Shown here: positions 1,835-6,398 of the stretch, one piece after another
How positions within the stretch are numbered: position 1 is the stretch's first letter
Layout of the letters: the number at the start of each line of letters is the position of its first letter
NCBI GenBank assembly: GCA_017405875.1
Contig: JAFQZM010000025.1
Span: 1-64,000 of the forward strand
Reading direction: 5' to 3'
DNA from: a bacterium
GTDB lineage: Bacteria; UBP6; UBA1177
Length of the DNA: 64,000 nucleotides
Program-made: the position numbers and the translations under genes
Notes under the pieces: generated by a model
Database searches by the model: none
Told to the model about the DNA's origin: nothing
The model's input: the letters and a program-made list of their open reading frames with translations, nothing else

Positions 1835-1996
1835 ATGAAAGAATGTATCAAATGCAGAGCAACAATCCATGAAAGTGGAACTTTCTGTTCCAATTGCGTA
1901 GCAAATGAATATAAGCAGAAAAATTCAAACCATGTCACAAATTTTAAATTTATCAATAATTTTAATAACTTTTTTGTTTATGGAGGTTTAGTATGA
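1835..1996 (+). CDS. Small zinc-ribbon protein, 53 residues
   Basis: A short ORF starting 10 nt after the ATPase stop, with an AGAAGG ribosome site just upstream of ATG 1835. The N-terminus has two CxxC knuckles (CIKC and CSNC, spaced by 11 residues), as in minimal zinc ribbons; the remaining 30 residues are Asn/Phe-rich and unrecognised. Its stop overlaps the next start in an ATGA. Tight spacing suggests co-transcription with the ATPase, making it a candidate partner or regulator. It is too short for family assignment and could be a remnant of a longer zinc-ribbon protein. Confidence 0.6.
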   Translation: MKECIKCRATIHESGTFCSNCVANEYKQKNSNHVTNFKFINNFNNFFVYGGLV

Positions 1997-4551
1997 AAAA
2001 ATTCTGTGCTGTGTTTGCGCTTTTCTGCGTTATGTTTTTATTTGCTGCATGCGGCGGCGACGGAACAACAAAAATAATCAACGAACAAAATTCTGACGAT
2101 TCCTCTTCAGAAACAAACGACTCTGATTCTGATTCAAGTTCTCAGGATCCAGAGGATCAAAATGATGAAGAAATTTTGGATTCTTCCGATTTCCGCGATG
2201 ATTCGGACGGTGAAACTGATACTACACCGGATGATGCCGATCCTACCGATGACAATGCGGATTCCGGTGACGATGAAGATTTCATTGATCCAGATGTCAC
2301 CGATACTGGTGAAACCGTCGGTGAAACGCGGGTCGCAGACTGCACGGGGCTTCCTGAAAACGCAAGTTGGAACACTGTTTCGGCAATAGTCCAGACCTGG
2401 AACGGAGAAAAGTGGGTTCCGTCAGCTGTCGCATCGTTTAATCTTGAAGGAAGCGAGGACGAATGCCGGTTCAAATGCGATACGAATTACGGCTGGGACG
2501 ATTCACATTGCTCGGCTGACGTGAAAAATGCCTACTGCGACGCAAAACCTGAAAACTCAGTTTGGAATGACGGCGGCAGAAACGGCACCTTCGCCCAGAC
2601 TTGGAACGGCTCTGCCTGGACTCCTGCAAGTCACGCGGCAGTTTACAGCAAAAGCGAGGTCGAATGCGGATTTGTCTGCGCCACGGGTTACCTTTGGGAC
2701 GGTTCAGAGTGTGAAACCGCTCCGACTCAGACTGTTGAATGCACCGGTCTTCCGTTAGTCGGAGCCGAGTGGAACACGACTTCGACCATAACCCAGACTT
2801 GGGATGGTGAAAAATGGGTTCCTGAATCGACAACAGGTGTTTACAACGAAAATCCGAGCACTGAAGAATGCCGCTTCAAATGCAAAGAACATTACACTTG
2901 GAAAAATTCCGAATGCACAGCTGACAAGAAAAATTCCCCCTGCATGAATCTTCCGACAAACGGTCAGTGGAATACAGTAAACAGCATCGAACAGACATGG
3001 AGCGGCTCTGACTGGCAGCCCTCAACGACTGGTGTCTACAACAAAACCGCAAGCGACACAGAATGCCGTTTTGTCTGCAAGACAAACTACAAATGGAACG
3101 CTTCAACTTCAAAGTGCGAACCGGAAACAAATGTCGCCGACTGCACAGGCAAGCCTGCAAATTCAGTCTGGAACGGCAGCGGCAAGTTCACCCAGACCTG
3201 GACCGATTCAGGCTGGTATCCGGCAGGCTACGAAGCTACCTACAGCAAAACAGCGGAAACATGCACATTCAAATGTGAAACAGGCTTTGTCTGGGATGAA
3301 ACGAGCTGCATAAGCGCGCCGACAAGGACAGCGGACTGCCTTGGCAAGCCTGAACACGCGCAGTGGAACAGTGTTTCGAGCATAACGCAGACCTACAACG
3401 GAGAAAGTTGGGAGCCCTCGACGACCTCAGTTCACAACACAGAAGCAAGTGAGGACGAATGCCGGTTCAAATGCGAAACAAATTACACATGGAACGGCTC
3501 GACATGCGCAAGCGGCGGCTCATCAACAACACCATGCGACCCCAATCCTTGTCTTAGTGTCGCAAATTCGACACAAGAGTGCTCTGTTTTCGGCGGCACG
3601 AATTACAAATGCGAATGCAACTCCGATTATTATTGGGACGGTAGTGTCTGCGGAACAGTCCAGACGCAAACTGCTGCGTGCACAGGTTTAATATCAAATA
3701 CCGAATGGAACACTGTTTCAGAAATCATTCAAAAATGGGATGATTACCTGGGGACTTGGGTTCCGACAGCCACGGGTTCCTACAACGAAAATCCAAGCAC
3801 AAATCAGTGCAGATATAAATGCAAAGAAAATTATTTTTGGAGTGATTCTAAGTGTGTTAGTCCATGCACTTCCAATCCGTGCGGTCACGGCACATGTACA
3901 GCAATAAATATCTCTGAATATTCCTGCGAATGTGATGATAACTATTTCTTTGATTCAGATTCTGGCAAATGTGTTACCCCATGCACGTCGTGCAGTAGCG
4001 ATCAGAATTCGACAGGAGAGTGCAGCGCAACAAGTTTAACTGACTTTTCATGCGGATGCAAAACCGGTTCCACTTGGAATGTATCTGAATCTAAGTGCCT
4101 TGTTGATCCGGAAAATCTTCCGGAATGTAGCTCGACAAGTGCAACACCGTGCAAGGATTCATCAAGCGGACTCACCTGGTCGACAAGGGCGACAAGCAGC
4201 TATACCTGGCAGAATGCAGTCAACTATTGCAGCAGCTATTCAGAGGGCGGACTCAGCGGCTGGCATCTGCCGACGATCAGCGAGTTGAGAACACTTATTC
4301 AGAATTGCTCTGCAACTCAGACAGGCGGCTCCTGCGGTGTTACCGATTCATGCCTTTCATACAGTAATTGCAGCAATGGTGCTTGTTCCGGTTGTTCTGG
4401 TACAAACAGCAAGTTGGGAGACACCGACTTTTTATGGTCTTCCTCTACTAGATCAGATGATACAGATAACGCATGGTTCGTGGGTTTCAGCTACGGACGC
4501 GTGGGCAGCAGCCTTAAGACTAACAACTTCAATGTCCGTTGTGTGAGGTAG
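1993..4551 (+). CDS. Cys-rich repeat lipoprotein with C-terminal DUF1566 domain
   Basis: An 852-residue exported protein. A signal peptide ends in lipobox FAAC (Cys20), so it should be lipid-anchored. An acidic Asp/Ser linker runs to about residue 110. Seven copies of a roughly 58-residue module follow, each with C-x2-(L/K)P, WN, QTW, W-x-P, ECxFKC and a final YxW-x4-C. EGF-like six-Cys segments (PCxxNPC...CxC) interrupt copies 6/7 and follow copy 7. The C-terminal 150 residues are a DUF1566 (Fibrobacter-type paralogous, C-type-lectin-like) domain with SGLTW, GWHLPT, LWSSS and terminal VRCVR. Start ATG 1993 has GGAGG upstream. Likely a surface binding protein; the ligand is unknown. The last codons have a pattern expected of a diversified target (see findings). 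Confidence 0.9.
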   Translation: MKKFCAVFALFCVMFLFAACGGDGTTKIINEQNSDDSSSETNDSDSDSSSQDPEDQNDEEILDSSDFRDDSDGETDTTPDDADPTDDNADSGDDEDFIDPDVTDTGETVGETRVADCTGLPENASWNTVSAIVQTWNGEKWVPSAVASFNLEGSEDECRFKCDTNYGWDDSHCSADVKNAYCDAKPENSVWNDGGRNGTFAQTWNGSAWTPASHAAVYSKSEVECGFVCATGYLWDGSECETAPTQTVECTGLPLVGAEWNTTSTITQTWDGEKWVPESTTGVYNENPSTEECRFKCKEHYTWKNSECTADKKNSPCMNLPTNGQWNTVNSIEQTWSGSDWQPSTTGVYNKTASDTECRFVCKTNYKWNASTSKCEPETNVADCTGKPANSVWNGSGKFTQTWTDSGWYPAGYEATYSKTAETCTFKCETGFVWDETSCISAPTRTADCLGKPEHAQWNSVSSITQTYNGESWEPSTTSVHNTEASEDECRFKCETNYTWNGSTCASGGSSTTPCDPNPCLSVANSTQECSVFGGTNYKCECNSDYYWDGSVCGTVQTQTAACTGLISNTEWNTVSEIIQKWDDYLGTWVPTATGSYNENPSTNQCRYKCKENYFWSDSKCVSPCTSNPCGHGTCTAINISEYSCECDDNYFFDSDSGKCVTPCTSCSSDQNSTGECSATSLTDFSCGCKTGSTWNVSESKCLVDPENLPECSSTSATPCKDSSSGLTWSTRATSSYTWQNAVNYCSSYSEGGLSGWHLPTISELRTLIQNCSATQTGGSCGVTDSCLSYSNCSNGACSGCSGTNSKLGDTDFLWSSSTRSDDTDNAWFVGFSYGRVGSSLKTNNFNVRCVR

Positions 4552-4589
4552 GTCGTGACCGCAATTTACGAGTGCAGCGAGTTATTTTT

Positions 4590-4614
4590 GCCCGCCCTTT
4601 TGAAGGGGGCGGGC
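4590..4614. other. GC-rich hairpin downstream of the DUF1566 gene
   Basis: GCCCGCCC (4590-4597) pairs perfectly with GGGCGGGC (4607-4614), 38 bp past the stop codon. No T-run follows directly, so termination more likely occurs at the next hairpin. Confidence 0.6.
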
Positions 4615-4621
4615 ATGGTTT

Positions 4622-4649
4622 CCCGCCGTGAGGCGGGTCGAGGTTTTTT
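4622..4649 (+). terminator. Probable Rho-independent terminator of the lipoprotein gene
   Basis: CCCGCC, loop GTGA, GGCGGG (4622-4637), followed after six bases by a T6 tract (4644-4649). The spacer before the T tract is longer than usual. Confidence 0.5.
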
Positions 4650-4746
4650 CCCTCTCAGTCACTATGTGACACCTCTCCCGAAGGGCGAGCCAAGTCAAAA
4701 CCTTGCCTCGCCCTTCGGGAGAGGTGTCACATAGTGACTGAGAGGG
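4650..4746. repeat. Perfect 40-bp inverted repeat with 17-bp loop
   Basis: The arm at 4650-4689 is exactly the reverse complement of 4707-4746; the loop is 4690-4706. Each arm contains a smaller palindrome around GTCACTATGTGAC and the string CTCCCGAAGGG. The layout resembles the palindromic REP/MITE-like elements scattered between genes in many gut-associated bacteria, but no second copy lies in this window. Confidence 0.9.
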
Positions 4747-4970
4747 TTGGGACAGAGGGCAACCGGCTTTTTGCGCTTCTCATCAAACTCCGTTCGGTTC
4801 TCACCTCGTATTTAGCCTATTCATCGAAGGCGAATTCGTTCCGAATCATACAGAAAACCATAAGTCCGCACAAATGGATAGAGAAAATTTTCAAAATATC
4901 AGGAACAAAAGCGGCGTTGTTAGAGGAAATCACGCAGGAACAGGAAAGAATAGTTTTCGGGTTTTATTAG

Positions 4971-4994
4971 AATGTCAGTTGTGTGAGGTAGGTC
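4971..4994 (+). repeat. 24-bp duplicate of the DUF1566 gene 3' end
   Basis: Matches 4531-4554 at 23 of 24 positions, covering the codons for NVRCVR, the stop and three further bases. The only difference is A here versus C in the gene. Sequence to the left does not match the gene, so this is either a short scar or one end of a direct repeat flanking a 416-bp insertion. Confidence 0.85.
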
Positions 4995-5287
4995 ACTTTG
5001 AGATAAACTCGCTCATTTTATGGGAATTTCGAAAATAAATTAGAAGCAAAATGAAAAAAATCCGCACTTGTTTCCGGAGGGAAATTCCGATATCAAAAGG
5101 AAAAATAAGCTATTCTTTATACGAAAAAACTTGGAAAAGCGCATTTTTTTATCTATTACATCTCGGAATCGTGCAGTTTTCGCTGCTGCAAAGTCGCGGA
5201 ATCGTGCCGTCAGATTTTCTCGTGCAGAAGCCAGTTCTCACAAACAGACGAATACAGACCAGAAAACGTGGAATTTTTGCTATTTTT

Positions 5288-5293
5288 TATAAT
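5288..5293 (+). promoter_or_regulatory. Possible -10 box upstream of the HAD lipoprotein gene
   Basis: A consensus TATAAT lies 47 bp before the start codon. No good -35 hexamer is seen at 16-18 bp, so this is weak evidence for a promoter. Confidence 0.3.
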
Positions 5294-5339
5294 AACTCTA
5301 AAATATTAAGTTTTTGTTCCATTCATTCGGGGGTTCACA

Positions 5340-6398
5340 ATGAAAAAACGCTGCTTTATTTTTATCATTTTTTCGATCTTCATTTTCTCTGGATGCGGTG
5401 AAAAAACAACGGAACAGTCAAAGAATCCGTTCGAGCTGTGGAACGAATGCGAATCGATCAGCGCGCTTCAAAACTATGTCGCAGCCGTGACGGACGAAAA
5501 ATCGGAAAATTTCATTCCGGTCGAAGACAGGATCGCAGTTTTTGACATGGACGGAACGCTGTGTGGCGAGCTTTTTCCTGAATACATCGAGTATCTGCTG
5601 CTCGAATACCGCTGCCTCGACGATCCGGCATACAAAGACATTGCCGACGACGAGCTCAGGGAAGTTGCAAATCTCATAAGAGAGTCAGGCAAAAATTACA
5701 AGACTCCGGACGTTGACCACTTTGACCTCGTGCACGGAAAAGCTCAGGCAAAGGCGTTCGAGGGAATGACTCCCGATGAGTTCATTGCGTATGTCAAGAC
5801 GTTTTTAGGACGCAGTGCGCAGGGTTTCGAAGGGCTTACCTATGCAAATTCGATCTACAAACCGATGATCGAAGTCGTTGCATATCTGCAAAACAATGGT
5901 TTTTCCACTTATATCGTGAGCGGTTCCGACAGAATGCTCTGCCGCGCACTTGCCGGAGAAGTGCTGAATATCCCCGAAAATCAGGTCATCGGCATGGATG
6001 TCAGGCTTGTGGCGGCTAACCAGGGAGAAAAGGACGGTCTCGACTATCAGTTCAATGCCGGAGGAAGCGACAAACTCGTCAGAAGCGGAGAGCTTTGGCT
6101 CAAAAACCTCAAAATGAACAAGGTTTTCAATATCGCTCAGGAAATCGGCAAACAGCCGGTACTTTCATTCGGCAACAGCAGCGGAGACGTTAGCATGCAC
6201 GAATACACCGTCACCGGCAACAAGTACAAGGCGATGGCCTTCATGCTTATCGCGGACGACACAGAGCGCGACCATGCCGATATGGAAGAAACAAACAAGC
6301 GCAAGGCCAAATGGGAGGAAAAAGGCTACACCATAATTTCGATGAAAAACGACTTCAAGACCATCTACGGCGAAGGCGTAGTCAAAACTGACGATTGA
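5340..6398 (+). CDS. HAD-superfamily phosphatase-like lipoprotein
   Basis: A 352-residue protein with a signal peptide ending in lipobox FSGC, predicting a lipid-anchored enzyme outside the cytoplasm. HAD motif I is FDMDGTLCGE (both Asp present), motif II is in IVSGSDRM, and motif IV in SFGNSSGDVSMHEY. This arrangement is typical of the phosphoserine-phosphatase-like HAD family (PF12710). The expected activity is hydrolysis of a phosphomonoester; the substrate cannot be read. The start has a GGGGGTT-like ribosome site. The next gene begins 39 bp downstream on the same strand, so the two may be co-transcribed. Confidence 0.85.
   Translation: MKKRCFIFIIFSIFIFSGCGEKTTEQSKNPFELWNECESISALQNYVAAVTDEKSENFIPVEDRIAVFDMDGTLCGELFPEYIEYLLLEYRCLDDPAYKDIADDELREVANLIRESGKNYKTPDVDHFDLVHGKAQAKAFEGMTPDEFIAYVKTFLGRSAQGFEGLTYANSIYKPMIEVVAYLQNNGFSTYIVSGSDRMLCRALAGEVLNIPENQVIGMDVRLVAANQGEKDGLDYQFNAGGSDKLVRSGELWLKNLKMNKVFNIAQEIGKQPVLSFGNSSGDVSMHEYTVTGNKYKAMAFMLIADDTERDHADMEETNKRKAKWEEKGYTIISMKNDFKTIYGEGVVKTDD

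Follow-up and report, generated by a model that had tools for sequence, protein, structure and literature searches.

Does the gene at positions 1993–4551 end in the variable repeat (VR) of a diversity-generating retroelement (DGR), and if so, where are the template and the reverse transcriptase (RT) that would rewrite it? The window, the whole stretch of 64,000 nucleotides analysed here, lies on contig C18 of a MAG of 2.51 Mb in 47 contigs, which belongs to the same genus as the rumen candidate-phylum bacterium UBP6_UBA1196, along with MAGs from yak and reindeer. The gene is an open reading frame on the forward strand, as are all stranded features described below, and encodes an 852-aa protein with a lipoprotein-type N-terminal signal, MKKFCAVFALFCVMFLFAACGG (lipobox read by eye), cysteine-rich repeats and a C-terminal Lcl_C/DUF1566 domain (4153–4548). 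Pfam PF07603 matches residues 721–852 with E 1.2e-20 and 74.4 bits against a cut-off of 34.9. A PDB sequence search with this single domain as the query gave no matches. An AlphaFold2 model of the domain, of moderate confidence (pLDDT 72.7), found the C-terminal domain of Legionella Lcl as its best structural match (8q4e, E 9e-4) and C-type lectins next, so that the domain is predicted to have a C-type-lectin-like fold, the usual fold of DGR targets. Lcl_C/DUF1566 stretches are abundant in the source genome (132 in 2.5 Mb), some of them in tandem inside frames of 1000–3000 aa, and only about five of the 132 are recognised as VRs.

The variable repeat and its template

A segment of 124 bp at 4435–4558, which spans the end of the gene, matches a template repeat on another contig of the same genome, C46. 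The two differ at 18 of the 124 positions, and all 18 mismatches fall on template adenines (47 A and 77 non-A positions; Fisher p 2e-9), comprising 10 A>G, 6 A>T and 2 A>C substitutions, with complete identity at the 77 non-A positions. Against a second template repeat, on contig C14, the window VR has two non-A mismatches, which are exactly the two positions that separate the C14 and C46 templates. In the region preceding the VR, the window gene and the C46 target gene share just 68% identity; together with the full identity at non-A positions, this is compatible with copying limited to the VR segment. By this comparison of sequences, the window VR bears the mark of having been copied from a template of the C46 type. 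The sequence-only reading of this DNA had placed the variable segment at 4468–4551; that span lies within the VR, which starts earlier.

Searching the genome with the C14 template as a pattern in which adenines were left free returned six matches, namely the two templates, two VRs on C14, one VR on C46 and the window, while the reversed pattern, used as a control in the same genome, returned none. The VRs on C46 and C14 also differ from their own templates at adenines only (20/20 and 15/15 mismatches, respectively). A fifth VR of the source genome, at C16:28724-28753, has the IMH GGCCGCA, a different spacer and, compared with the C46 template, apparent small in-frame indels (read by eye).

Cassettes and cis elements

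Two RVT_1 genes are present in the source genome, on C14 and C46, which places template and RT on contigs other than that of the window. Both contigs carry the same order of an Lcl_C target gene, a 128-aa Avd protein, a non-coding template repeat, the RT and a further Lcl_C gene, making two complete DGR cassettes. The 128-aa proteins match PHROG 3206, 'Avd protein of DGR', with E 6e-14 and 1e-12, and the NCBIfam Avd model weakly, far below its cut-off. The RT matches PHROG 1423 at about E 1e-101, contains the motifs PIGNLTSQ and YVDD, and has its best PDB match in 8ub7 (149 bits), which we take to be the RT of the BPP-1 DGR; the next match, the best group II maturase, scores 41 bits. By these features the RTs on both contigs are of the DGR type. 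We rejected a defence RT, since matches to PADLOC and NCBIfam RT models (DRT, retron, group II) were far weaker than that to PHROG 1423 or fell below cut-off. A scan of IMG/VR with the RT as the query found no relatives and thus no sign of a phage home. The sequence-only reading had proposed the gene end as a DGR target and had staked this on a template repeat and a DGR RT being found in the genome; both are there, with Avd, and the proposal stands. In both RT genes (L001:1096-2571 and L002:1099-2568), a palindromic repeat is translated in frame near the C-terminus (NPSQSLLRQAQQPTALP..GEVSRSDGEG), and the repeats at the corresponding position in other RTs or RT stumps from the genus are different.

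Directly at the end of the window VR lies a putative IMH, GACCGCA (4557–4563). In every cassette read, the VR form of this element (GRCCGCA) is distinct from the template form, IMH* (GAACGCA). We used it for a survey of the genus, in which the pattern GTTGTGTSAGGTA-spacer-GRMCGCA occurred 50 times in 14 of 15 genomes and its reversal not once in the same 15. The sites sort by their ending, GAACGCA marking templates with one exception and GRCCGCA marking VRs. The exception, G002:C37, carries GAACGCA on codons that are not Asn-rich, and is probably not a true template. Of the 36 distinct VRs of the genus, 9 have mismatches to a genus template solely at adenines. Two genomes that are 98–99% complete, G004 and G010, have VRs whose differences from the C46-type template fall exclusively, or nearly so, on adenines; an RT was not found in either genome (RT lost or assembly gaps). 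A diverged RT at G012:C21:6107-6364 (35% identity, in a 435-aa frame) is perhaps of a different DGR type.

Just 3′ of the window VR is a GC-rich inverted repeat, TGCCCGCCC-TTTTGAAGG-GGGCGGGCA, with a 9-nt loop (4589–4615), whose core the genome contains just three times, always in a VR flank. A second inverted repeat follows, CCCGCC-GTGA-GGCGGG (4622–4637), which at the C46 VR reads CTCGCC-GTGA-GGCGAG, a paired change, and at the C14 VR CCCGCC-GTAA-GGCGGG. The GC-rich hairpins past the stop that had been noticed from the sequence alone, one of them GTGA-looped, are thus real, but the more conserved hairpin after the VR is the one with the 9-nt loop. Across the genus, a GC-rich downstream hairpin of 6 or more GC pairs is found in 26 of 36 distinct VR flanks, as against none of 7 GAACGCA-marked flanks (six distinct repeats, one with two flanks; G002:C37 included) and none of 500 random segments. 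Stems diverge and still pair, as in TGCCCGTCC/GGACGGGCG at L135 and TGTCCGCC/GGCGGACG at L166. Such a hairpin after the VR, with none at the template repeat, is consistent with a DGR, and in BPP-1 it is needed, but with GRNA loops (Guo et al. 2011, PMC3240598). The loops in the window, 9 nt and GTGA, depart from this 4-nt consensus, which is one of phage DGRs and not defining for all DGRs. Rfam gave no match in 4000–5400.

A reverse transcriptase stump beside the target

Between the hairpins and the next reading frame lies a REP-like palindromic repeat (4650–4746, no strand assigned), a probable deletion junction with related copies upstream of and inside RT genes. The open frame that follows (4743–4970) is a C-terminal stump of a DGR RT, lacking the catalytic part, with similarity to the C14 RT (58%, E 5e-22); across 72 codons it is 87.5% identical to the end of the RT of cassette L045. 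It had been said from the sequence that no RT lies in the window and that one would have to be elsewhere, which holds for a functional RT and overlooks this stump. Directly after it the 3′ end of the VR is present once more, AATGTCAGTTGTGTGAGGTAGGTC (4971–4994). Such a copy also stands straight behind the RT stop codon in L045 (7294 onward) and L046 (2317 onward), and at all three places no target gene adjoins it. The RT stump beside the target is a previously unreported element of the locus.

The order of target, repeat and RT stump recurs in two sister species, once in L051 and twice in L052 (the latter being G002:C75, with coordinates in agreement). The open frame of the stump and the concentration of its 24 window-lineage changes at third codon positions (15, against 7 at first and 2 at second positions) make it probable that the RT was truncated recently. 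The simplest reading of the junction is that avd, the template repeat and most of the RT were deleted between palindromic repeats. A HAD gene at 5340–6398 is retained in six sisters, and we saw no VR in front of it or at the orthologous place in the sister stretches read, one of which reaches only about 1 kb upstream; the arrangement of target and stump therefore looks lineage-specific.

The RTs most similar to the stump are those of the L045/L046 type; the VR and its spacer, by contrast, belong to the C46 type. A C46-type VR beside an L045-type stump may reflect overwriting in trans after the loss of the local cassette, and recombination between cassettes is another explanation.

Explanations for a remote target

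Drawing on the adenine-confined pairing, the cassette make-up, the cis elements and the RT stump, we consider it very likely that 4435–4558 is the VR of a DGR target gene remote from its machinery, whose former local cassette has been cut to an RT stump; rewriting in trans, probably from C46, would account for its sequence. The DGR RT, acting together with Avd, would misread adenines as it copies template RNA of the C46 (or possibly the C14) cassette, and the cDNA would replace the 3′ end of the lipoprotein gene, with the IMH and the hairpin past the stop directing the replacement. Such replacement would vary the binding face of the C-type-lectin-like domain of a protein that may be displayed on the surface to bind varied ligands. 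The local cassette would have been reduced to the stump, probably via recombination between palindromic repeats, before homing from C46 set in; that homing may lie in the past, or C46 may still act on the window VR today.

The closest rival, which we think doubtful, is that the VR diversified while its own cassette was present and has been inert since that cassette was lost. The adjoining stump would suit such a relic, as would G004, G010 and other genomes in which VRs are found and an RT is not, and the core VRs of G004 and G005 are identical, as expected of a frozen VR; a remote target of Treponema denticola SP32 was interpreted as the leftover of a lost DGR (PMC4891356). Against it, two intact cassettes remain in the source genome, the IMH and both hairpins are intact, and all non-A positions match the C46 template rather than a template of the L045/L046 cassettes, whose RTs are the ones that the stump resembles.

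We consider it improbable that the RT fragment has been kept as a module with a function, be it a small accessory protein or a cis element, rather than being debris. Its recurrence next to VR genes in three species and four copies, all with an open frame, speaks for such a role, together with the excess of third-position changes; that bias could, however, predate the truncation, the junction repeats differ among copies, stump L050 was found with no target beside it, and no start signal was identified (by eye only).

Overwriting in trans of a stranded target can be set beside known DGRs. The Bordetella phage BPP-1 DGR likewise combines RT, Avd, template repeat and VR with an IMH and a hairpin after the VR, whereas here the hairpin loops are mostly 8–11 nt, the second hairpin has a GTNA and not a GRNA loop, and the target is a chromosomal lipoprotein. 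The Legionella target LdtA presumably resembles the window target in being a DUF1566 protein with several targets per genome. The DUF1566 targets of Stenotrophomonas do so as well (PMC6642488); in the window, unlike in either, the VR is on another contig than template and RT. Also comparable are the TvpA-type remote targets of T. denticola, lipoproteins with a C-type lectin fold far from the core, with a remote target read as left over from a lost cassette (PMC4891356); here, by contrast, we find a DUF1566/Lcl_C domain, an RT stump marking the deletion, two complete cassettes remaining and another phylum. Cyanobacterial remote variable proteins are also dispersed, with VRs at the 3′ end of C-type lectin genes, and transposase genes lie near them (PMC7517822), where here palindromic repeats flank the cassette loss.

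DUF1566 targets (PMC4159848, PMC6642488), remote targets (PMC7517822) and leftover targets (PMC4891356) have thus been described before, and contig-based surveys miss remote targets by design (PMC8144416). Our literature search found no text joining DGRs and UBP6. The present locus adds a DGR target confirmed from raw sequence, with template and RT elsewhere in the genome, and a candidate-phylum rumen genus with VR-type sites in 14 of 15 species genomes; repeat-mediated deletion would be a visible path by which targets become remote. More tentatively, at somewhat less than even confidence, we suggest that targets in this genus outlive their cassettes: deletions between palindromic repeats would strip avd, template repeat and RT, leaving target, IMH, hairpin and RT stump, and the stranded targets would go on being overwritten in trans by any cassette that remains. 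If true, the surface proteins would form a dispersed network supplied by a few templates.

The suspicion had begun with codons. The template has 13 Asn codons (AAC/AAT) facing the segment from Trp4474 to NVRCVR, and 15 in all with two further upstream (4459, 4468); the sequence-only reading had described these codons correctly and counted fourteen, the extra one probably being ACT (4519) or the framework codon TTC (4486). Its observation that they end in C or T is borne out at 13 of 13 and at the two upstream (15/15), and 10 of the 13 are altered in the window. Codon endings taken alone are suggestive only, weak against the genome background: 67.5% of codons in the same columns of other Lcl_C/DUF1566 domains of the genome end in C or T, and 14 of 14 would arise by chance with p about 0.004 per domain, against 132 domain stretches. 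That the gene is an ordinary DUF1566 paralogue with endings set by codon usage, which this background would allow, is nonetheless next to impossible given the A-only template mismatches and the DGR RT, Avd, IMH and hairpin; the reading as a DGR target is decisive because the template comparison puts 18 of 18 mismatches at adenine. Two control domains score 15/15, one of them itself a VR. A multi-domain Lcl_C protein on C45 (L040, a 1557-aa frame) has one Lcl_C domain with C/T-ending codons at 15 of 15 columns, possibly an old VR.
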